A stretch of DNA of 64,000 nt from Enteroscipio rubneri (GTDB lineage Bacteria; Actinomycetota; Coriobacteriia; Coriobacteriales; Eggerthellaceae). The stretch covers positions 1 through 64,000 of the forward strand of contig NZ_PPEK01000015.1 of the NCBI RefSeq assembly GCF_002899715.1, read 5' to 3'. The notes below the pieces were generated by a model. That model was not told the DNA's origin. It made no database searches and saw only the letters and a program-made list of their open reading frames with translations. The position numbers were made by a program, and so were the translations under genes. Positions 4,211 to 28,643 of the stretch are shown here, in pieces; position 1 is the stretch's first letter, and the number at the start of each line of letters is the position of its first letter.

Positions 4211-5770
4211 TTATTTGCTGCGGCTTTTACGCGTAATTCTGCCGATCATTTTTCCAACAAGCTCCCGCTCTTCTTTATTCATGGAGCAACAATAGGCGAC
4301 AAAGCAATATCCTATGGTAAAAATCGCAATTCCCAATGCCAGCAAAACCCAAGAGCCAAGTGATCCTTGAAAATGATACACGATGAAGAAACCAGCTGTG
4401 CTGTAAGCGGCTAGGGGAAGTGCCACGCGGGCGGTGTTCTTCCAGTAATCGCGCACGTCCAAATGCGCGGTTCGATAGTAATACACGTTCATGATGACGC
4501 CGTTCCCGATCAACATCGATAGACCCGTCACTATAGCTGCGCCCATTGCCCCGTAAACGGGCGCTATCAAAATGACAAGAAGGATGTTGGCTATGGCCAT
4601 TCCAAGATATACCTTACCGCGAAAATAATATTTATTCATCACTTGCAAGATAACCAAGGCAAGATTTTGAATGAGATCGATGGTGAACGGAACCATGAGT
4701 ACGGCAGCGAGATAGTATGCATCGGAGAACTCCGAACCAACCCATAGCCGGATAAAGTCTTTGCCGAAGACAATGAAGCCGAAGAGGATCAGCAGCAGGG
4801 GGTACAAGGCGATCCGACCAACTCTGGTAAACAGGTCGGAAATTCCCTTGGTGTCGCGATCTGAGAAATACATCTCAGACACTTTTGGCATAAATACCGA
4901 TGATATAGCCGTTCCTATAGGCATGTAGCACATGCATATCTGCGATGCGATCGAGTAAAGAGCCACCGTGGATGTGCCATAGATATAGCCCAGTATAAGC
5001 TGATTCGAGCTCCAGAATACCTGGTCGGCAATCTGAACCAACAGCATGCCGGATGAAAAGAAGAGCAGGCTTTTTAGCAAATGATCGGTATCTGCGTGCT
5101 TTCTGACTTTTGCTCCAAGATGCCGACGGGCAAATAGGCGCTGCGCAAGAGCGCATAGCACGTTAAGGGCGAGTTGTACGAGGCATGCGGTCAACGCATA
5201 GGGGAAAACGCTCAGCAAAAGCACAACCGCTATCGGCTGAATGAGAACGGAGGCAAGTTGGGTGCTTTTCAGAAAGGCAAACCGTTCGTGCGCGTTGATC
5301 ACGGCGACGTTGATGGTGTTGTTCATGGTTACGATAAGGTTCACGACCAAGACGGCTATCATAACCGAGCCTTCAAGCAGCTGGTTTTCCGACAAAGAGG
5401 CTGCATATGCCGATCCGAACAACAGCACGACTACGCCGCCGATGAGAATGGCGGCTAGGGAAACCACCCTATATATGTTCCTGCTAATCGCAAGGGTGTT
5501 TTCCATGCCATTAATGTCTCTCGAAGAGAAGTATTTGCAGTAAAATCTTGTGACACCTCCAGCGAACGTCGAATTAAGTATGGCCATGTTTGCCATGACG
5601 GAGCCGATAAGCTGGTAGAGGCCGTACTCGTTGGTTCCTAGTCCATTTATAAGCAAGGGAACGTAGATGATCCCCACAATGGCTTGAGCAAGCGTGTAGG
5701 CGTATGAGAGAACCACGCCCGACATGCGTCGGGCGTTTCGCTTCTCAGCGCTTTCGAGGGGAGTGCTCAT
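4211..5770 (-). CDS. Wzx-type oligosaccharide flippase
   Basis: A 519-residue protein with about 12-14 membrane helices that starts with a short basic cytoplasmic tail and reads GVVLSYAYTLAQAIVGIIYV, the usual first helix of polysaccharide flippases in the MATE/MVF superfamily. Known members move undecaprenyl-linked repeat units across the membrane. Its ATG overlaps the stop of the upstream GT2 gene (ATGA), so the two are probably translationally coupled. No Wzy polymerase is obvious in the window, unless one of the unidentified polytopic proteins does that job. The tail past residue 500 is basic (RITRKSRSK). Confidence 0.85.
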   Translation of the reverse strand: MSTPLESAEKRNARRMSGVVLSYAYTLAQAIVGIIYVPLLINGLGTNEYGLYQLIGSVMANMAILNSTFAGGVTRFYCKYFSSRDINGMENTLAISRNIYRVVSLAAILIGGVVVLLFGSAYAASLSENQLLEGSVMIAVLVVNLIVTMNNTINVAVINAHERFAFLKSTQLASVLIQPIAVVLLLSVFPYALTACLVQLALNVLCALAQRLFARRHLGAKVRKHADTDHLLKSLLFFSSGMLLVQIADQVFWSSNQLILGYIYGTSTVALYSIASQICMCYMPIGTAISSVFMPKVSEMYFSDRDTKGISDLFTRVGRIALYPLLLILFGFIVFGKDFIRLWVGSEFSDAYYLAAVLMVPFTIDLIQNLALVILQVMNKYYFRGKVYLGMAIANILLVILIAPVYGAMGAAIVTGLSMLIGNGVIMNVYYYRTAHLDVRDYWKNTARVALPLAAYSTAGFFIVYHFQGSLGSWVLLALGIAIFTIGYCFVAYCCSMNKEERELVGKMIGRITRKSRSK

Positions 5771-7059: not shown

Positions 7060-8058
7060 ATGCTCGATAACAAGACGATACTGGTCACCGGTGGCACCGG
7101 CTCGTTCGGCAATGCGTTTACGCGCTATGTGTTGGAAAACTACGACCCGAAGAAGATCATCATCTACTCGCGGGACGAGTATAAGCAGTTTATAATGCGC
7201 AACAAGTTCATGGAGTTCGATTCGAAGCTTCGGTACTTCATTGGGGATGTTCGCGACTCGGAACGCCTCCATCGTGCTCTGCGCGATGTCGATTACGTTG
7301 TTCATGCGGCAGCGCTCAAACAAGTTCCCGCTTGCGAGTACAATCCCATGGAAGCCGTCAAAACCAACATCGATGGCGCCATGAACCTCGTGAATGCTTC
7401 TCTTGATTCAGGCGTGGAGAAGGTCGTTGCCCTTTCCACCGATAAAGCGGTCAACCCCGTTAACTTGTATGGCGGCACGAAGCTCGTGTCGGACAAGCTC
7501 TTCATCGCGGCAAATGCTTATAGAGGGCAATCGGGCACCACGTTTTCGGTGGTTCGGTATGGCAATGTTGCGGGCTCACGCGGTTCCGTCATCCCGTTTT
7601 TCGATAATCTGATAAAAAGCGGTGCGGCAGAGTTGCCCATCACCGATTTCCGCATGACGCGCTTTTGGATATCGCTAGACGAAGGTATTCAGTTGGTCAT
7701 TAAGGCGCTCAACGAGGCAGAAGGTGGCGAGACGTTCATATCGAAGATTCCCTCGTTCAAGGTGACTGATCTTGCTACGGCCATGGCCCCTGAAGCCAAA
7801 CAGATCGAAGTCGGTATCCGGGAAGGGGAGAAATTGCATGAATGCATGGTTCCCGCAGCCGACAGTTTGACGACTTACGAGTATGAGAATAATTTCATTA
7901 TCTACCCGCATATGGAGTGGTGCGATCTTTCGAAGATCGACTTGCGCGACGGAAAGAAAGTCGAGTCAGGATTCGTATATGATTCAGGTACGAATACCGA
8001 GTGGCTTTCTGTGGATGAACTGCGCAAGCTTCTTTCAGAAATGACCATTAAGTACTAG
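7060..8058 (+). CDS. pseB: UDP-N-acetylglucosamine 4,6-dehydratase (inverting), PseB
   Basis: A 332-residue short-chain dehydrogenase. TGGTGSFG at residues 10-17 is the NAD(P)-binding loop. STDKAVNPVNLYGGTK holds the Asp128-Lys129 pair and Tyr137 expected of the FlaA1/PseB group. PseB removes water from UDP-GlcNAc and inverts C5, giving UDP-2-acetamido-2,6-dideoxy-L-arabino-hexos-4-ulose, the first step to pseudaminic acid. It is the first gene of a six-gene run with all later Pse enzymes. A GGGAG lies 7 bases before ATG 7060. Identity is firm because both the family motifs and the pseC partner agree. Confidence 0.93.
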   Translation: MLDNKTILVTGGTGSFGNAFTRYVLENYDPKKIIIYSRDEYKQFIMRNKFMEFDSKLRYFIGDVRDSERLHRALRDVDYVVHAAALKQVPACEYNPMEAVKTNIDGAMNLVNASLDSGVEKVVALSTDKAVNPVNLYGGTKLVSDKLFIAANAYRGQSGTTFSVVRYGNVAGSRGSVIPFFDNLIKSGAAELPITDFRMTRFWISLDEGIQLVIKALNEAEGGETFISKIPSFKVTDLATAMAPEAKQIEVGIREGEKLHECMVPAADSLTTYEYENNFIIYPHMEWCDLSKIDLRDGKKVESGFVYDSGTNTEWLSVDELRKLLSEMTIKY

Positions 8059-8066
8059 GGGTTACT

Positions 8067-9269
8067 GTGCAAACACTTGCCATCGAGGGCGGAAAGCCGA
8101 CTAGCGATCACATGATCGGGTATGGGCATCAAAGCATATCGGAAGAGGATGTGAGGGCGATTGTCGACGTGCTGCACGGCGACTTCCTCACGTGCGGACC
8201 AGCTACAGAGGCGTTCGAGGAAGATCTCAAGGAGGTAACCGGCACCTCCTTTGTTACAGCAGTTGCCAATGGAACGGCGGCGTTGCACGTTGCCTGCCTT
8301 GCGGCGGGCATTGGATTTGGCGATGAGGTAGTCGTATCCTCCATAACCTTCGCAGCCTCTGCCAATTGCGTGCTGTACTGCGGGGGAACACCCGTCTTCG
8401 CCGACATCGACCCCGATACTTGGAATATTTCGCCCGATGCCATACGGAGCCGAATCACGTCGAAAACCAAAGCGGTGATCGCTGTTGACTTTGGTGGTGT
8501 GCATGTTGATTCGGATGCCATTCGTGCTATTTGCGAAGAGCATAACCTCGTATTTATTGAGGATGCCGCACATGCGATAGGAACGAGCCATAACGGCGCT
8601 GCGGTCGGTTCTTTGGCGGACATCACCACGTTCAGCTTCCATCCGGTCAAAACTGTGACTACGGGCGAGGGTGGTGCAGTGACAACCAACGATCCCGCCT
8701 TAGCCGAGCGCATTGCTCTATTTGCAAAGCACGGTATCACGCGTGATGTGAATCTTTTGCGCAATCCTGATGAAGGCGGCTGGTATTACGAGCAGTTAGA
8801 ACTCGGCTATAACTATCGCATGAGCGATATCCAAGCAGCCCTCGGTTCGAGTCAGCTAACAAGGTTGGGCGAGTTCTCTGCTCGCAGGCGAGAGCTCGTT
8901 GCGTTTTATAATCGCGAGTTCTCAGATATTCCAGAGGTCTCTTTCCAGAAAGATGTTTCGCCAGGTGAGACGACTCGTCATCTCTATGTGCTGCGTTTCG
9001 ATGTTGAAACATTGAAAACATCTCGCAGATTTATCTACGACGCATTGCGCGCCGAGGGCATTGGGGTAAATGTGCATTATCTCCCCGTCTATCGACTGCC
9101 GTACTATCAGGACAAGGGGTACCCGGCAGATTGCTGCCCGCAAGCCAATTGCTTTTATGAGGAGGCGATAACGCTGCCGCTTCATTTTGGCTTAGCGGAC
9201 GAGGAGGCTCAGCATGTGGTAGACGCGGTGCGAAAAATCATAGATTATTGCCGAGCGGTCAGCCGATGA
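8067..9269 (+). CDS. pseC: UDP-4-keto-6-deoxy-GlcNAc C4 aminotransferase, PseC
   Basis: A 400-residue DegT/DnrJ/EryC1-type PLP aminotransferase. FIEDAAHAIG gives Asp166, which contacts the PLP ring, and SFHPVKTVTTGEGG gives the Schiff-base Lys195. It transfers an amino group from glutamate to the PseB product, forming UDP-4-amino-4,6-dideoxy-N-acetyl-beta-L-altrosamine. The start is a GTG at 8067 with AGGGG just upstream, eight bases after pseB ends. Its stop overlaps the pseF ATG. Length is normal for the family. Confidence 0.93.
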   Translation: MQTLAIEGGKPTSDHMIGYGHQSISEEDVRAIVDVLHGDFLTCGPATEAFEEDLKEVTGTSFVTAVANGTAALHVACLAAGIGFGDEVVVSSITFAASANCVLYCGGTPVFADIDPDTWNISPDAIRSRITSKTKAVIAVDFGGVHVDSDAIRAICEEHNLVFIEDAAHAIGTSHNGAAVGSLADITTFSFHPVKTVTTGEGGAVTTNDPALAERIALFAKHGITRDVNLLRNPDEGGWYYEQLELGYNYRMSDIQAALGSSQLTRLGEFSARRRELVAFYNREFSDIPEVSFQKDVSPGETTRHLYVLRFDVETLKTSRRFIYDALRAEGIGVNVHYLPVYRLPYYQDKGYPADCCPQANCFYEEAITLPLHFGLADEEAQHVVDAVRKIIDYCRAVSR

Positions 9270-9955
9270 GTATCGTAGCTGTCATAACAGCTCGAGGAGG
9301 CTCCAAAAGGATACCTCATAAGAATGTGAAGAGCTTTTGCGGTAAACCTATTATTGCATACTCCATTGATGCTGCTTTGAGGAGTAGTCTATTTGATGAG
9401 GTGATGGTGTCCACCGATGACGTGGAAATTGCGGATATCTCTCGACAATACGGAGCGCGAGTGCCGTTCATGCGAAGTACAGAAACAAGCAACGATTTTG
9501 CAACGACGGCTGATGTGCTGGCGGAGGTTTTAGAGGTATACGCTAGAGGCGGAATGGCTTTCGATGAAGTTTGCTGCATATACCCAACGGCGCCTTTTGT
9601 GACACCGCAGAAGCTTAACGAGGCTAAGCGGCTTTTTGATCGCGGCTGCGATTCGGTTCTCAGTGCCGTTCGGTTCTCGTTTCCGCCGCAGCGAGGGTTT
9701 GTCGTTTGCGAGGGTCGTCTTTCCTGGTGGTTTCCTGAATGTTCCAATATGCGAAGCCAGGATCTTGAGCCTATTTACCACGATGCCGGACAGTTTTACT
9801 TTGTTCGCTCGAAAGTTATCATTGAAGAACGGTCGCTCATAGGCCCGTATTCGCAGCCATACGAAGTGGCTGAAGATGAGGCGCAGGATATCGATACACC
9901 GAGCGATTGGAAGATCGCCGAGATGAAATTCGAGAGGATGCTCGCTCATGAGTAG
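9266..9955 (+). CDS. pseF: Pseudaminic acid cytidylyltransferase, PseF
   Basis: A 229-residue CMP-sugar synthetase. The N terminus reads ITARGGSKRIPHKN, the CTP-binding motif of the NeuA/PseF family. It couples pseudaminic acid to CMP, making the donor for transferases. I place the start at ATG 9266, overlapping the pseC stop in ATGA, rather than at the upstream in-frame ATG 9248, because the family begins right before this motif. Lying third, ahead of the synthase, it suggests the genes are ordered for coupling rather than by pathway step. Confidence 0.92.
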   Translation: MSIVAVITARGGSKRIPHKNVKSFCGKPIIAYSIDAALRSSLFDEVMVSTDDVEIADISRQYGARVPFMRSTETSNDFATTADVLAEVLEVYARGGMAFDEVCCIYPTAPFVTPQKLNEAKRLFDRGCDSVLSAVRFSFPPQRGFVVCEGRLSWWFPECSNMRSQDLEPIYHDAGQFYFVRSKVIIEERSLIGPYSQPYEVAEDEAQDIDTPSDWKIAEMKFERMLAHE

Positions 9956-10976
9956 GCTGAAGGATGCATTAGCTTCGAACCGTCCGTATTATATCGCCGA
10001 GATGAGCGCCAACCATGGAAACGATCTTGCGATTGCGCTGCGCATCGTAGATGCCGCAGCGGAGGCTGGCGCAGACTGCTTGAAAGTGCAAACATATACG
10101 GCGGACACATTAACGCTTGATTGCGATAACGAGTATTTCACCATTAAAGGGGGGCTGTGGGACGGTAGACGTCTGTACGATCTCTACTCCGACGCATCCT
10201 TTCCTTGGGAGTGGCATGAGCCGGTAAAAGCCCGGTGTGAGGAATGGGGTTTGGACTTTCTGTCCACGCCGTTCGATGCTGGAGCTGTCGACTTCTTGTG
10301 TGAATTGGGTGTAGACGCGTTCAAGATCGCCTCCTTCGAGTTGGTGGACATTCCGTTATTGGAATATGCTGCTTCCAAGGGCAAGACGATGATCGTTTCA
10401 ACCGGTATGGCTTCTGTTGAGGACATAGAAGAGGCGGTGGCTGCGATTCGGGGCGCAGGCAATCAGGATATATGCCTCTTACGCTGTTGCAGCGAATACC
10501 CCGCCGATCCCGCCGATATGAATTTGGCCAGCATACCCGATATGGCCAATCGGTTTGGTTGTCATGTGGGATTCTCCGACCACTCAATGGGGCACCTTGC
10601 TGATGTCGCTGCGGCGGTTTTGGGTGCTCGCATCATTGAAAAGCACTTCTGTTTAGGGCGGGATATAGAGACGGCGGATTCCGAGTTCTCGATGACGCCT
10701 TCCGAGTATCGTGCCATGGTGGATGCGGTGAATGCTGCGGTCGATGCTGTCGGGGGGCCTTGCTACACCCCCTCCGAAAAAGAAGCGACGAGTCTTGTTT
10801 TTAGGCGTTCGATTTTCGCGGCCGCCGATATTGCCAAGGGGGAACCATTTTCCGAGAGAAATATCCGTGTGGTTCGTCCCAGCTATGGCGCAAAACCCAA
10901 ATACTACCATCAGATGATCGGAAGGCCTTCAGATCGTACCTATGCCTTCGGTGATCCGATTGTGTGGGGTGAATGA
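9948..10976 (+). CDS. pseI: Pseudaminic acid synthase, PseI
   Basis: A 342-residue NeuB-family enzyme. It has an N-terminal TIM barrel (YIAEMSANHGND near the start, then VGFSDHSMGH) and a C-terminal SAF/antifreeze-like domain from about residue 280 (RRSIFAAADIAKGE). It condenses 2,4-diacetamido-2,4,6-trideoxy-L-altrose with phosphoenolpyruvate. The start overlaps the end of pseF by eight bases. NeuB, LegI and PseI are hard to tell apart by motif alone; the surrounding pseB, pseC, pseH and pseG make Pse the best reading. Confidence 0.92.
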   Translation: MSRLKDALASNRPYYIAEMSANHGNDLAIALRIVDAAAEAGADCLKVQTYTADTLTLDCDNEYFTIKGGLWDGRRLYDLYSDASFPWEWHEPVKARCEEWGLDFLSTPFDAGAVDFLCELGVDAFKIASFELVDIPLLEYAASKGKTMIVSTGMASVEDIEEAVAAIRGAGNQDICLLRCCSEYPADPADMNLASIPDMANRFGCHVGFSDHSMGHLADVAAAVLGARIIEKHFCLGRDIETADSEFSMTPSEYRAMVDAVNAAVDAVGGPCYTPSEKEATSLVFRRSIFAAADIAKGEPFSERNIRVVRPSYGAKPKYYHQMIGRPSDRTYAFGDPIVWGE

Positions 10977-10980
10977 AGCT

Positions 10981-11481
10981 ATGGTGGACAAAAACTTCGC
11001 GTTCCGATCAGAGCGGCTTTCCTATCGGGGTATAACAAAAGAAGATGCCGAGATCATCGTCGGCTGGCGTAGTGATCCTGATAATTACAAAACCTTTTTT
11101 AATCGGCGCCCGATTACGCTGGAAGAGCATTTGGCGTGGTTTACGAACTACCTTGACGATATGACTCGCTACGACTTCATGGTCATAGATGAAACGGGCG
11201 CGCCCATCGGAACCGTCGGTTTGTCCGGGATATCGACTGATGCATGCGAGATCAGCTATATGATCGGAGCAAAGACGGCTCGTGGCAAGGGGTATGCGAA
11301 AGAGGCGGTGCGAGCCGCTACGCAACTTGCGTTTTCGGAGTTCGGTGTGAGGTATGTGGATGCGCGCATTCTTCCAGGAAATCACGCATCAGAAAAAGTG
11401 GTTGAGGGATGCGGTTACGCAGAAGTTGAACATGTGTTTCGCATTGAGCGAGCGGATGACGCGGGTGGTGGATGCTTTTGA
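10981..11481 (+). CDS. pseH: GNAT N-acetyltransferase, PseH
   Basis: A 166-residue GNAT-fold protein that acetylates the C4 amine of the PseC product using acetyl-CoA. ITKEDAEIIVGWRSDP near the start and the acetyl-CoA-binding GAKTARGKGYAKEA near the middle are typical, as is the later LPGNHASEKVVEGCGY. I choose ATG 10981, four bases after the pseI stop; an upstream in-frame ATG at 10942 would add 13 residues inside pseI. The end overlaps the pseG start. It supplies the only acetyltransferase step the pathway needs. Confidence 0.9.
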   Translation: MVDKNFAFRSERLSYRGITKEDAEIIVGWRSDPDNYKTFFNRRPITLEEHLAWFTNYLDDMTRYDFMVIDETGAPIGTVGLSGISTDACEISYMIGAKTARGKGYAKEAVRAATQLAFSEFGVRYVDARILPGNHASEKVVEGCGYAEVEHVFRIERADDAGGGCF

Positions 11482-12533
11482 TGGACGGATCGCTTGTCAT
11501 TCGAACTGACGCTAATCCTTCCATAGGCTCGGGACATGTCGTTCGCTGCGTGTCTATCGCGCGTGAGGCGCGTTTGCGAGGCCTGCAAGTACTCTTTGCG
11601 GTTTCCGATAAAAAGTCTCAGGAGGTTGTGGAGGGTCGAGGAGAAACGGCCGTGATTGTGGGTGGTGACCCACGTTCTTTCAATGAGCGCGATGCTCATA
11701 CCGTTGCTGATTTTGCGCAACGCGTGCAAGCTGTCTCCGTTTTGGTTGATTCCTATGCCGTATCACATTCTTTCATGGATAGACTCCATCGGCGCTGCCA
11801 CGATTCTGGAAGTCAGCTCGTGTATATTGATGATGTATACACGTTTTCCGAGGGCTTCGTACCCGATCCGATCCCTTGGAGCCTCGATGTGGTGATCAAC
11901 TACGGCTTCATCTTTTCTGAAGACCAGTACCGAAACTTGTACGGCCCAAATGTCCGATTGTGCATCGGGCCGCGATACGCACCGGTGCGAAAAGAGTTTC
12001 ATAATGCAGGGTATATCGTCAGAAACGATGTCGGGCGTATTCTGATCACGAGTGGGTCAACCAATCCGAATCGAACGCTTGAACGTATGGTGGAAGGTTG
12101 TCGGCTCGCGTCGGTCGACGCTGCCCTGGATGTGATCGTCGGAGGGCAGGCGGACTTCGACGATCATGTACTAGATGGATTGGACGCCACAATTCATCGC
12201 GGGGTTTCTAACCTCGCTCCGATTATGAAGCGGGCCGATATAGCCATATCTGCTGCGGGATCGACTTTGTATGAACTCGCATGTGTTGGCGTTCCGACCA
12301 TCGCCGTTCCGATCGCCGAGAACCAGATGGGAAATATCCGAGGTTTTGACTCCTTGGGGCTTGGTCTCGGCGTAGCCGAACTCAATTGGGCTTCGGCTGC
12401 TGTCGCCAGCGACCTTGATACGTTGGTTCGAGATTCGCGAATGCTCCGATATTTATCGAAGAGAATGACTTCATGTATTGATGGCGCTGGCGCAAGACGG
12501 ATGCTGAATGAATTCGGTTTCCTTATGCATTGA
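11481..12533 (+). CDS. pseG: UDP-sugar hydrolase, PseG
   Basis: A 350-residue GT-B-like hydrolase that removes UDP from UDP-2,4-diacetamido-2,4,6-trideoxy-beta-L-altrose to give the PseI substrate. The N-terminal RTDANPSIGSGHVVRC is the family signature with the catalytic His in GSGH; the C-terminal half carries ISAAGSTLYELACVGVP, the nucleotide-binding region. ATG 11481 overlaps the pseH stop (TGATG) and gives a family-like N terminus; ATG 11472 three codons upstream is an alternative. It completes the six-enzyme CMP-pseudaminate route. Confidence 0.92.
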   Translation: MDGSLVIRTDANPSIGSGHVVRCVSIAREARLRGLQVLFAVSDKKSQEVVEGRGETAVIVGGDPRSFNERDAHTVADFAQRVQAVSVLVDSYAVSHSFMDRLHRRCHDSGSQLVYIDDVYTFSEGFVPDPIPWSLDVVINYGFIFSEDQYRNLYGPNVRLCIGPRYAPVRKEFHNAGYIVRNDVGRILITSGSTNPNRTLERMVEGCRLASVDAALDVIVGGQADFDDHVLDGLDATIHRGVSNLAPIMKRADIAISAAGSTLYELACVGVPTIAVPIAENQMGNIRGFDSLGLGLGVAELNWASAAVASDLDTLVRDSRMLRYLSKRMTSCIDGAGARRMLNEFGFLMH

Positions 12534-12544
12534 ATGCACGCTTT

Positions 12545-13672
12545 TTATTCGTCCATGAACTTAGAGATGGCCAACACGGCATCATCGATTGACACGGGAA
12601 CCGCGATGCGATTGGCGTCGATGCCGTATCCCTGTGCTGCGATGCTTGCAATCTGATCGTAGGCTTCGTAACTGCGATTCCCTTGTTCAAAAGCAAGTTT
12701 GTACAAAAAGATAAGAAAAGGCTTCTTGCCAGATTCTATAAAAGGCGCAAGCTGAGCCGAAGACCCTAAGCTTATTAGAATGGAGTCATCGAAGCACGGT
12801 GTCTGGCACAGTAACTCCCACGATCCCTCGGAAAAGTCTATGCAGCTTTCACCGAAAGCCGTTGCAAGAGTAGATCTTGGATGCGCTCGCACATAGCAAG
12901 GGCTGTCAAATATTTGAGCTGCTTGAACCATTTGATCAATGAGCTGCGACCCTTCGTTCTCCTGTTTTGTTCGGGGGACATCAAGGATGATGGTCTTTTT
13001 TTCATTGCGGAGCAGCTTTTCGTTTTGGGGTGCGAGGCAAGCCAAGGGTTCGAGAACATGCGGGGCCACTTCTATTGCCTCGCAAGGGATATTCGGACTA
13101 TATTGCAGTAGTTCGGGTTTTTTGGCATATAGCCTGCATGGATTGTAAAGCATTTTTTTTGCATGCAGTTTTGTGAGTGTGGACTGTATGGCTCGTACAT
13201 AGGGGAAGCCGCAGAGGGATGTGTCGGGAGGTTTGTCAAAGTAGAAGGGCTGAAGAAAAACATTACCATTGTAAATACCCGTCCCGTCCTCGAATAGTAC
13301 CGTTTTAACGTCAGGATTTATTTTCCGTAAAGTTTGAAGAACATCAAGGGCTGCTGGGGTAGGGCAGGCAAAGGCAAAATAATCGTAATGGATGTTTTTG
13401 AGGTGCGATAAATTAAGGCGGCTTCCGCCTAAGCATGCGTAAAGTTGCCACAAAAAGCGTTGTTTGAAGTTCGCACAATAGTGTTCTGTGCAGAGGTATA
13501 CAAAACGAAAGCGGTTGGTTTGACGATACACCTCGCCTAATTCTGCGGCACCGCTGAATTGGCTGTAAATTATGACATCAGAAGCGTCGTCCTTGTTCGC
13601 TTTGCTCGAAGCTAAGAGATACGAGTTGTAGAGCTGGAGAGGAGTATCTGCGAAATAAAGCCAGTTTGTCAT
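12545..13672 (-). CDS. GT52-like sialyltransferase-type protein, candidate pseudaminyl transferase
   Basis: A 375-residue soluble protein. It starts LYFADTPLQLYNSYLL, as do GT52/polysialyltransferase-like enzymes. It keeps the three bacterial sialyltransferase motifs in order: the D/E-D-G motif as FEDGTG (128-130), the HP motif as AHPRS (264-265) and the paired Ser motif as SLGSSAQ (304-305). Known members use CMP-activated nonulosonic acids. It lies tail to tail with the CMP-pseudaminate operon, so transfer of pseudaminic acid to the surface glycan is the natural inference. Acceptor and linkage are unknown. It is AT-richer than the core genes and has no membrane segment. Confidence 0.72.
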   Translation of the reverse strand: MTNWLYFADTPLQLYNSYLLASSKANKDDASDVIIYSQFSGAAELGEVYRQTNRFRFVYLCTEHYCANFKQRFLWQLYACLGGSRLNLSHLKNIHYDYFAFACPTPAALDVLQTLRKINPDVKTVLFEDGTGIYNGNVFLQPFYFDKPPDTSLCGFPYVRAIQSTLTKLHAKKMLYNPCRLYAKKPELLQYSPNIPCEAIEVAPHVLEPLACLAPQNEKLLRNEKKTIILDVPRTKQENEGSQLIDQMVQAAQIFDSPCYVRAHPRSTLATAFGESCIDFSEGSWELLCQTPCFDDSILISLGSSAQLAPFIESGKKPFLIFLYKLAFEQGNRSYEAYDQIASIAAQGYGIDANRIAVPVSIDDAVLAISKFMDE

Positions 13673-13837: not shown

Positions 13838-14863
13838 ATGTCTAATATGCGCGCTCCTCTATTATCCATAATCATCCCTGTATATAACGCCGACCGTTTC
13901 ATCGGCAAATGTCTTGATAGTTTGATATGCCAATTCGATGCTGCAGAAGTTGAGATCGTCTGTGTTAATGATGGCTCGGAAGACCGGTCGGGAGTGATCC
14001 TTGCAACCTATGTCGGCCAATATGCTTCTTTGATTGTGGAAACGCAGGAAAATCAAGGTGTGAGCGCGGCTCGAAACGCCGGCATCCGGCGTGCGAGTGG
14101 TCATTATGTTATGTTTGTAGATGGGGATGACTGGCTATGCGCGGATGCGGCTGAGAACCTCCTGCCCATTTTAAGATCCCTGCAGTATGATTGTGTATTC
14201 TTCGGGCTGCGTGAATCCGGGGCTCCAGGCGACGAGCCTTGTGCGGAATCCCGTTCGATTGAAGGCGTTAAGGGCGGTCCTGATGATGTTGCGGCTGCGA
14301 TTCTGGGATTTCAAAGTCCGTTCCAAGGCTATGCGCCCGGAAAGGTGATCCGTAGAAGCATTCTGCTAGCTGGCCCTTCGATTATGTTCGATGAACGGGT
14401 CTCCATTCTGGAAGATGAATGGTTTTGGATAAATGCAAGCTGCCGATGCGAGAGAGCTTTCATTCTGAACGAATCTTTTTATGTTTATCGTCGACGACAG
14501 GGAAGCCTGTCGTCGGGGCTCAACGAAGACCGTAGTCGACAAGAGTTATGTATGCGCAGACGGGTGCACAAGTATGTTCGGATCCATTATCCACGTCAAG
14601 AAAGACTGGCTCGGGGGAGAGCGGCGCAATGCGTTGCCGGTCTCGTCCGCTATTATTATGTTCATGAAGACAATGCGTCGCTCAGAAGCATCAGATCTGC
14701 TTGGAAAGCTTATCCCGGGTCAACCCTTCTTCTTTTGCCCGGAGTGCCGGTAGGGAGGAAGGTGAGTGTCTTACTGTGTGATGCGGCCATGGCATTGCAT
14801 GTTTCGCCGATCCTTTTGAAGCCGCTCAGATCCTTGCTTTCAGAGGGCATGCCTGAACAGTGA
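13838..14863 (+). CDS. Glycosyltransferase family 2 protein
   Basis: A 341-residue GT-A enzyme. LLSIIIPVYNADRFIGKCLDSL leads, CVNDGSEDRS is the nucleotide site, NQGVSAARNAGI the sugar-binding loop and FVDGDDWL the DxD region. The C-terminal third is basic and helical, as in many GT2 enzymes that work at the membrane. It diverges from the GT52-like gene across 165 bases and converges on the next GT2 gene. It probably transfers one residue of the repeat unit; sugar unknown. ATG 13838 is chosen, with ATG 13847 possible. Confidence 0.85.
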   Translation: MSNMRAPLLSIIIPVYNADRFIGKCLDSLICQFDAAEVEIVCVNDGSEDRSGVILATYVGQYASLIVETQENQGVSAARNAGIRRASGHYVMFVDGDDWLCADAAENLLPILRSLQYDCVFFGLRESGAPGDEPCAESRSIEGVKGGPDDVAAAILGFQSPFQGYAPGKVIRRSILLAGPSIMFDERVSILEDEWFWINASCRCERAFILNESFYVYRRRQGSLSSGLNEDRSRQELCMRRRVHKYVRIHYPRQERLARGRAAQCVAGLVRYYYVHEDNASLRSIRSAWKAYPGSTLLLLPGVPVGRKVSVLLCDAAMALHVSPILLKPLRSLLSEGMPEQ

Positions 14864-26804: not shown

Positions 26805-28634
26805 CTAGCTTCTGAGAGACCTTTGCAGATCCTTCAGCAGCAGCATCTTGTCCAAATCGCTGAACTGCGTGGAGTCGCCGAAAAAGACCACTTTTGAAAG
26901 CGTATCTTTCTTTGCTTCGATGTAGCTGAAGTTGTTGGTGATGCTGTCGAGGTTCTGGGCATCTTCTACCAGCACGGTGGCATTACGCTGTTTCGTCAAA
27001 GGGCCCATGGCAAGGGCGTCGGACGGATTCCAGATAGACACGAAAAAGGCCTCGAAACTCTGGTCGGTCGTATTGTCTCGTGCTTCTACCCATGACGTAA
27101 TGATGTTGTTGGCATCGAAGGGGTCTTTGCCGCAGAAGCGCGTGATCGGGATGCCGGCCTTTTCGAAGGGCGCCAGGCACTCCGCTGGGAACACGTCTTC
27201 TCCTCCGAGGAGGAGCACTTCGTCGAACGAGCCCGAGACGAGAGATTTGAGGACGTCTTCCCCAATCACGCCGCGTGAAACGCTGAAAAACAAGGGCATG
27301 CGATTGCGGTAGCTGTATGGCATGAAGCACAGGATGTCGCCGATGCCCTCCTGATAGGTAAGGATGGCTTTGCGTCCCCACCACTCGCTCTCGCCGTGCT
27401 TGAAAAGGGCGTAAGCCAAGCGCTCTTCCGAATTCTGATCGATGCGTGTGATAGTTGCAGCGGGGGAGATGACTTCAAGCCGTTTCACAACGGCATCCGA
27501 AATCAAGTCGCTTCCTCCCAGCACCGTGATGCTGGATATCTGCATCTGGCGGATTTTCTGATCCACAATATCTGGAAGACGGTCGGGTCGCGTGAGCAAA
27601 ACAGGCATTTCGTTCAAGCTGGAATAGGCATTGGCAAGCATGCAGACGGCATGGTTTTCACCAGGCGCGAGAATGATCGAGCCTGATCGTTCGCCCCCTT
27701 CGAGGCTTTCGAGGAGGTTCACGGGCGTAGCGTAGCGGGTTTCGCCGGCGAACGTTTCTACAAGCTCGTCGCAAGGTATTGAGGGATCGCGCAGCAGTTC
27801 GAATATGCGCTCTTCCGATTCAGCCGATCCGATATGTCCCCCGAGGACGCGATACACCTGGCAGACATCCTGCGCGGTGCCATCGATGCGCACATGGCCC
27901 TTCTCAATCCATACTGCCTTATTGCACAAGCGTTCTACCTGGTTGTTGTCATGAGAGACGATAAGAACCGTCACCTGATGTTCTTTGATAAGCGTCTGTA
28001 TTCGCCGTTCGCATTTCTGCTGGAACATGAAGTCGCCGACGGAGAGCACCTCGTCCACAATGAGGATGTCGGGAACGATGACGGTGGCGATGGCGAACGC
28101 AATGCGCGCTACCATGCCGGACGAATAATTCTTCAGGGGCATATCGAGGAATTTCTCGATTTCCGCGAATTCGACGATTTCGTCGAAATGGTCTTCGATA
28201 AAGCTCTTCGAATAGCCGAGCAGGGCGCCGTTCAGATAGATGTTCTCACGCGCCGTCAACTCCATGTCGAACCCGGCACCCAGCTCGATGAGCGGTGCGA
28301 TGTTGCCGTTGATGGTGCACGTGCCTTCGGAGGGCTCGAGGACGCCGGCGATGATCTTGAGCAAAGTCGATTTGCCGGATCCGTTGGTGCCGAGGATGCC
28401 GAATACGTCTCCTTTGCACACCTCGAGGGAGATGTCGTCGAGCGCGCGGAATTCCTTGAAGCGCAGCTCCCGCCTGGCCAGGGCGATCGCATACTCCTTG
28501 AGGTTGTTCATCGTCTCATTGGCCATGTTGAATACCATCGAGACATGGTCGACCTTTACCATGACTTCTTCGCTTGAACTTTCCACTTCCTCGATGCTCG
28601 AACCGAGAAACGAAGTATTGACGACTTCGGGCAT
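26805..28634 (-). CDS. Wzt/TagH-like ABC exporter ATPase with C-terminal CWB2 repeats
   Basis: A 609-residue protein. Residues 1 to about 285 form a complete ABC ATPase: GTNGSGKST (Walker A), NYSSGMVARIAF (the SSGM signature of Wzt/TagH), ILIVDEVLSVGD (Walker B) and VLIVSHD (H-loop). From about residue 295 it carries two or more CWB2-like repeats (PF04122 type): ETFAGETRYATPVNLL, MPVLLTRPDRL, ITVLGGSDLISDAVVKRL, and again EVLLLGGEDVFP. In Wzt this position holds a glycan-binding domain that selects the polymer for export. CWB2 is otherwise known outside the cell. ATG 28634 follows AGGTGG; GTG 28643 is an alternative. Confidence 0.88.
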   Translation of the reverse strand: MPEVVNTSFLGSSIEEVESSSEEVMVKVDHVSMVFNMANETMNNLKEYAIALARRELRFKEFRALDDISLEVCKGDVFGILGTNGSGKSTLLKIIAGVLEPSEGTCTINGNIAPLIELGAGFDMELTARENIYLNGALLGYSKSFIEDHFDEIVEFAEIEKFLDMPLKNYSSGMVARIAFAIATVIVPDILIVDEVLSVGDFMFQQKCERRIQTLIKEHQVTVLIVSHDNNQVERLCNKAVWIEKGHVRIDGTAQDVCQVYRVLGGHIGSAESEERIFELLRDPSIPCDELVETFAGETRYATPVNLLESLEGGERSGSIILAPGENHAVCMLANAYSSLNEMPVLLTRPDRLPDIVDQKIRQMQISSITVLGGSDLISDAVVKRLEVISPAATITRIDQNSEERLAYALFKHGESEWWGRKAILTYQEGIGDILCFMPYSYRNRMPLFFSVSRGVIGEDVLKSLVSGSFDEVLLLGGEDVFPAECLAPFEKAGIPITRFCGKDPFDANNIITSWVEARDNTTDQSFEAFFVSIWNPSDALAMGPLTKQRNATVLVEDAQNLDSITNNFSYIEAKKDTLSKVVFFGDSTQFSDLDKMLLLKDLQRSLRS

Positions 28635-28643
28635 GCTGACCAC

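Follow-up and report, generated by a model that had tools for sequence, protein, structure and literature searches.

Pseudaminic acid (Pse) is a sialic-acid-like sugar. Few enzymes that transfer Pse are known, and the literature names the Maf proteins, for flagellin, and the retaining GT118 enzyme KpsS1, for capsule. Maf1 of Aeromonas caviae is a flagellin Pse transferase and a putative user of CMP-Pse (PMC13317340). KpsS1, a Pse5Ac7Ac transferase of Acinetobacter baumannii, is related to KpsC/KpsS and is reported to be retaining, with donor and product both in the alpha configuration (PMC12887879). For the GT38 enzyme MhPST, E153 of a D/E-D/E-G motif is the general base, with Q41/Q44 near it, H291 of an HP motif stabilises CMP, E323 binds the ribose and S339/T340 help to hold the phosphate; in GT80 an Asp in an analogous loop is the general base (PMC5517516). 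In the case of B. subtilis SpsB, D/E-D/E-G and HP motifs together with a nearby CMP-Leg pathway proved misleading (PMC7439481).

The gene studied here was found at positions 12545..13672, on the minus strand, of the window, that is, the whole 64,000-nucleotide stretch of Enteroscipio rubneri DNA that was analysed. Its reading frame starts with ATG and encodes 375 amino acids, and the predicted structure, the PDB matches and a GT38 profile match mark the product as a candidate CMP-pseudaminate transferase with a GT-B fold. A complete pse set, in the order pseB-C-F-I-H-G, lies beside it on the plus strand, and five of the six products exceed the NCBIfam equivalog cut-offs: PseB (7060..8058; TIGR03589, 534 bits, cut-off 408), PseC (8067..9269; TIGR03588, 464 bits, cut-off 424), PseF, which makes CMP-Pse (9248..9955; TIGR03584, 283 bits, cut-off 206), PseI (9948..10976; TIGR03586, 427 bits, cut-off 340) and PseG (11472..12533; TIGR03590, 159 bits, cut-off 154). 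The remaining member, a PseH-like GNAT acetyltransferase (10942..11481; Acetyltransf_3, 2e-28), scored 49 bits with TIGR03585, below the cut-off of 93. The candidate gene converges on this operon tail-to-tail, with 11 bp between its stop codon and that of pseG; it is a neighbour of the operon and not part of it. The genome of the window contains one match to the NeuB/PseI family (PseI) and one to PseF-type cytidylyltransferases (PseF). The initial annotation, made from the DNA letters, was therefore right to place the gene next to the only CMP-nonulosonate operon, which is a genuine CMP-Pse operon by NCBIfam and lies on the opposite strand.

The same locus encodes a polysaccharide flippase of the Wzx type (4211..5770, minus strand; Polysacc_synt, 2e-13), a possible exporter of the acceptor glycan, together with an ABC-2 exporter, several GT2 enzymes and, assigned by eye, dTDP-rhamnose synthesis. 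Elsewhere in the window (26805-28643, minus strand) an ABC exporter ATPase is fused to a CWB2 domain, which is unusual for a cytoplasmic exporter subunit, the usual location of CWB2 domains being extracellular. The candidate gene has a G+C content of 46.7%, whereas the pse genes are at about 50-53% and the window as a whole at 57.3%; this low value is consistent with recent acquisition.

The fold was explored with an AF2 model built from six sequences, which had a mean pLDDT of 73.7 and a pTM of 0.76 and was unreliable at residues 65-84 and 139-173; a single-sequence model (pLDDT 37) was discarded. When the model was compared with the PDB by Foldseek, the top nine matches were all GT38, GT52 or GT80 sialyltransferases, with GT38 first (5wc6, E 5.4e-9; 5wcn, 2.4e-8), the GT52 Neisseria LOS sialyltransferase 2yk7 third (7.4e-7) and the GT80 structure 2iiq at 2.4e-6. 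Alignment with 5wc6 (MhPST/SiaD) by VIA-align 2 gave a Z of 16.9 over 317 residues with an rmsd of 5.8. For the GT80 enzyme PmST1, also a GT-B sialyltransferase, Foldseek E was 2e-6 and Z 14.7, at about 11% identity. Structure prediction and comparison with GT52 and GT38 structures, which had been suggested as a check, thus point to a two-Rossmann GT-B fold, the nearest structures being sialyltransferases. Note, however, that the best GT-B enzyme outside the sialyltransferases reached a Z of 14.7, so that the lead of the sialyltransferases in the model comparison (16.9 vs 14.7) is real but modest, and the sequence evidence therefore matters.

By sequence, the sole Pfam hint for the candidate was PF07388 (polysialyltransferase), at 15.8 bits and under the cut-off of 23.3; this model matched three of seven family members, all weakly (best E 0.0037). 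The seven members gave no match to the Pfam GT80 model and none to the GT52 model (PF07922, Glyco_transf_52) with E up to 10, and a PF07922 search of 149 genomes of the class was also empty, the positive controls being likewise silent. No NCBIfam match was obtained for the candidate, and neither phmmer nor HMM searches of PDB sequences gave a meaningful match. A more sensitive comparison by hhalign, in which a three-sequence GT38 profile (E. coli NeuS, MhPST and a Sinorhizobium member) was aligned with nine homologs, returned P 3.3e-6 and a probability of 88% over residues 98-273, with FEDGTGIY placed on IEEGTGTY and YVRAHPR on FIKPHPK. Control profiles gave P 0.56 (PseG, also GT-B) and 0.23 (GT2), while NeuS on its own against the homolog family gave P 0.008, which became 3e-6 once the two other GT38 members were added. 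These data argue for remote sequence homology to GT38, and yet, as judged by the curated models, the candidate formally belongs to neither GT38 nor GT52.

The GT52 label of the initial annotation was accordingly dropped, since PF07922 found none of the seven members and 5wc6 (GT38, E 5e-9) was a better fold match than 2yk7 (GT52, 7e-7), even though the GT-B fold and the types of CMP-site motif are common to the candidate and GT52. With GT38 (MhPST/SiaD 5wc6 and E. coli K1 NeuS; PF07388) the candidate has in common the best match to a solved fold, the profile match and, in the same order, an N-terminal Gln, E-[D/E]-G-T-G-x-Y, K/R-x-H-P, a ribose Glu and Ser-Ser/Thr. It differs in having only about 12-14% identity and a PF07388 score below the cut-off. 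The neighbours of the candidate's family make Pse or Leg and not polysialic acid, and the product of the window's own locus is Pse, not Neu5Ac; alpha-2,8/2,9 polysialic acid polymerase activity is a GT38 trait. The candidate is best described as a divergent branch of the GT38/52/80 kind of sialyltransferase, nearest to GT38 and with Pse as predicted donor.

The catalytic-type motifs, all read on the minus strand, were then placed on the MhPST active site (PMC5517516). The N-terminal motif T10-P11-L12-Q13 (13634..13645) would correspond to the Q41/Q44 region near the catalytic base, and Q13 is present in 8/9 homologs. E128-D129-G130 (13283..13291) is a D/E-D/E-G motif, found in 9/9 homologs, of which D129 would act as the general base, as E153 does in MhPST. 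R262-A-H264-P265 (12878..12889) is a K/R-x-H-P motif, again in 9/9, with H264 as the proposed residue stabilising the CMP phosphate (MhPST H291; PMC5517516, PMC12887879). S304-S305 (12758..12763) is the putative phosphate-coordinating Ser/Thr pair (MhPST S339/T340), with S304 in 9/9 and Ser or Thr at position 305 in 8/9. E-D-G at 128, HP at 264 and Ser-Ser at 304 stand exactly where the initial annotation had put them, the first two once each; its motif list lacked E286 (12815..12817), the proposed ribose-binding Glu (MhPST E323), which is invariant in the alignment. From the protein's composition, 0.18 [DE][DE]G and 0.35 HP would be expected, against one of each observed, and [ST][ST] alone is weak (5 against 4.7 expected); what lifts the motifs above chance is that they coincide with the positions conserved in the homolog family. 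Across the nine aligned sequences, which are 18-24% identical, no columns were invariant except M1, Y96, G130, H264, P265, E286, S304 and A306. The spacing from base to His is 135 residues (138 in MhPST), from His to Glu 22 (32) and from Glu to Ser 18 (16). Motif order and spacing agree with MhPST, from which we infer the residue-by-residue equivalence.

The SpsB precedent (PMC7439481) bears directly on this argument. A GT-B enzyme for an ordinary sugar, such as a UDP- or dTDP-sugar, might merely lie beside pse genes as SpsB lies near Leg genes; many GT1-type enzymes reached Z 12-14.7 with the model, and dTDP-rhamnose is also made by the locus (by eye). We regard this as very unlikely, as what is invariant in the homolog family is the residue set of CMP-sugar enzymes, sialyltransferases supply both the best sequence profile and the best folds, and a cytidylyltransferase gene lies near the homolog in nine genomes out of nine (see below). 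Compared with SpsB, the argument from motifs and neighbourhood appears strengthened here by family-wide invariance, the predicted fold and the repeated linkage, and the product of 12545-13672 is very likely a CMP-nonulosonate transferase.

A sequence search recovered homologs in 2/138 genomes of the family and 8/396 genomes of the class, and a profile search raised the latter to 9/396, the window's own genome included; one further homolog was found in a Clostridia MAG (L067) with a narrower profile, A2. The protein family is rare in Coriobacteriia, and identity to the eight other Coriobacteriia homologs was 18-24%. A homolog in G384 is no more than a fragment. No homolog was detected in plasmids and phages by tblastn, nor in viral contigs. 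The gene was absent from other Pse-making genomes of the class, among them G062 of the same genus, and is therefore not a general solution for Pse transfer. In a tree of the ten homologs the placement of the window's protein was unsupported, and donor type therefore cannot be read from phylogeny.

The neighbourhoods of the homologs were examined in the nine homolog-bearing genomes. A PseF/NeuA-type cytidylyltransferase gene was present on the same contig, 1.2-11 kb from the homolog, in all nine (only homolog-bearing genomes being counted), and a nonulosonate synthase lay within 10 kb in five. Nonulosonate (NulO) synthase genes, counted at E < 1e-30, occurred in 6/9 homolog genomes and 43/396 class genomes (hypergeometric P 8e-5; P 5e-4 with the window's own genome left out). 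The homologs of G421, G308 and G273 lie within full CMP-Leg type clusters (names by eye, NeuB-type synthases confirmed), and that of G042, which like the window's genome belongs to Eggerthellaceae, is surrounded by a Pse-like gene set. In G347, G355 and G309 the cytidylyltransferase was present with no clear synthase in the genome, and in G059 it stands beside an unusual gene set. The homolog family is clearly not Pse-specific, and, with relatives in Leg and cytidylyltransferase-only loci, homology gives no guide to the choice of donor.

It could be, therefore, that the enzyme is a CMP-nonulosonate transferase whose physiological donor is another CMP-nonulosonate, made from Leg, from sialic acid taken up by scavenging or from Pse after further modification, since relatives occur within CMP-Leg operons and in loci with a cytidylyltransferase where the genome lacks a clear synthase. 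This we consider unlikely for the window's genome, in which the single NulO synthase scores above the PseI cut-off, a single PseF-type cytidylyltransferase is encoded and no route to CMP-Neu5Ac or CMP-Leg is visible, a point that does not bear on modified Pse. From this pathway content we infer that the donor is CMP-Pse.

The window's genome was also searched for ALTERNATIVES: models for Maf/MptE-like, Capsule_synth (KpsC/KpsS type), Glyphos_transf (TagB type) and flagellin genes, each of them positive in control genomes, detected nothing there. CMP-Pse needs a transferase, and these searches turned up no known kind besides the candidate; as no flagellin gene was found, a surface glycan is the more probable acceptor. 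The candidate itself gave no Pfam match to Capsule_synth (PF05159) or MptE-like/Maf (PF01973), the family of Maf1. The GT2 neighbours at 13838, 14904, 16160, 16980 and 5767 were dropped as Pse transferases, GT2 being, to our knowledge, not among the CMP-nonulosonate transferase families.

With KpsS1 the candidate would share its predicted donor and a role in surface polysaccharide assembly, the (K/R)xHP motif being common also to retaining Kdo transferases (PMC12887879). KpsS1 is the one characterised capsule Pse transferase, and a retaining CMP-sugar transferase of the Kdo/KpsS1-like kind (GT99/107/118), instead of an inverting GT38-like one, was weighed on these grounds. It seems highly improbable: Pfam gave a weak polysialyltransferase match and no other, the window's genome contains no detected Capsule_synth homolog, in contrast to the KpsC/KpsS-related KpsS1, and the best PDB matches listed include none of GT99/107/118, an absence that falls short of proof.

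Taken as a whole, the data are probably best explained by a GT38/52/80-type GT-B enzyme that moves Pse from CMP-Pse onto a surface-glycan intermediate. The pseudaminyl transferase of bacterial sialyltransferase type first proposed thus stands on fold, motifs, genomic association and the lack of detected alternatives, with CMP-Pse as the likely donor, and loses its GT52 assignment. One point that speaks against it is that the gene runs on the strand opposite to the pse operon. The enzyme would be a cytoplasmic, metal-independent glycosyltransferase of the bacterial sialyltransferase superfamily, supplied with CMP-Pse by the neighbouring pseBCFIHG products. By analogy with MhPST, R262/H264 would bind CMP and E286 hold the ribose, S304/S305 and H264 would stabilise the leaving phosphate, and D129 would activate the acceptor hydroxyl, with inversion at the anomeric centre. 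Pse would be passed to a lipid-linked surface-glycan intermediate, for later export by the locus's own flippase or ABC exporter. KpsS1 being retaining with an alpha donor and product, an inverting enzyme would yield the opposite anomer. If true, a GT38-like Pse transferase would offer a structurally different, probably inverting route to Pse glycosides that complements the retaining GT118, and would imply that some gut Actinomycetota display sialic-acid-like sugars. We lean towards regarding the homologs as a family of their own at CAZy level, so far unclassified, of nonulosonate transferases that are inverting and related to GT38. It would be uncommon in Coriobacteriia, with one Clostridia relative, and its members would have diverged in the CMP-nonulosonate they use: that of Pse in the window's protein, that of Leg in others and perhaps that of sialic acid from the host in Olsenella-type genomes. 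The ten relatives, in different nonulosonate loci, form a natural panel for how the choice between Pse, Leg and sialic acid donors is encoded.

Several of the loci compared showed features of their own. In L012:9592-15260 (G347) and L014:7607-10377 (G355, Olsenella sp.) a cytidylyltransferase accompanies the sialyltransferase-like homolog with no clear nonulosonate synthase genome-wide, and host sialic acid is possibly scavenged there for surface display. The homolog-adjacent cytidylyltransferase of Tractidigestivibacter montrealensis (G309, L013:7454-8162) is split over two frames, either because the gene is broken or through an error in the sequence. In G059 (L058:6277-10700) a distant cytidylyltransferase adjoins an HMGL-like aldolase, a TPP enzyme and a HAD-YhcH fusion, a set that looks like an unknown CMP-sugar pathway. 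The G042 locus (L010:2234-7249) is a variant of a Pse-like operon that includes an RmlD-like reductase, a formyltransferase-like protein and a PIG-L-like deacetylase; as assembled, its PseF-like gene carries a frameshift. In G298 (L061:11349-13886; by eye) a hexapeptide acyltransferase, an SDR reductase and a thiolase break up the Pse genes and might supply a Pse variant with an acyl group of hydroxybutyryl type. In the same-genus locus L059 (G062) the order of the Pse genes is shuffled, the window-type transferase is absent and very large secreted repeat proteins are interleaved. ATP-grasp enzymes, one with an L-amino acid ligase C-terminal domain, lie within the Pse clusters of L059:6631-7836 (G062) and L060:9130-10332 (G095), where amino acid amidation of Pse is possible.
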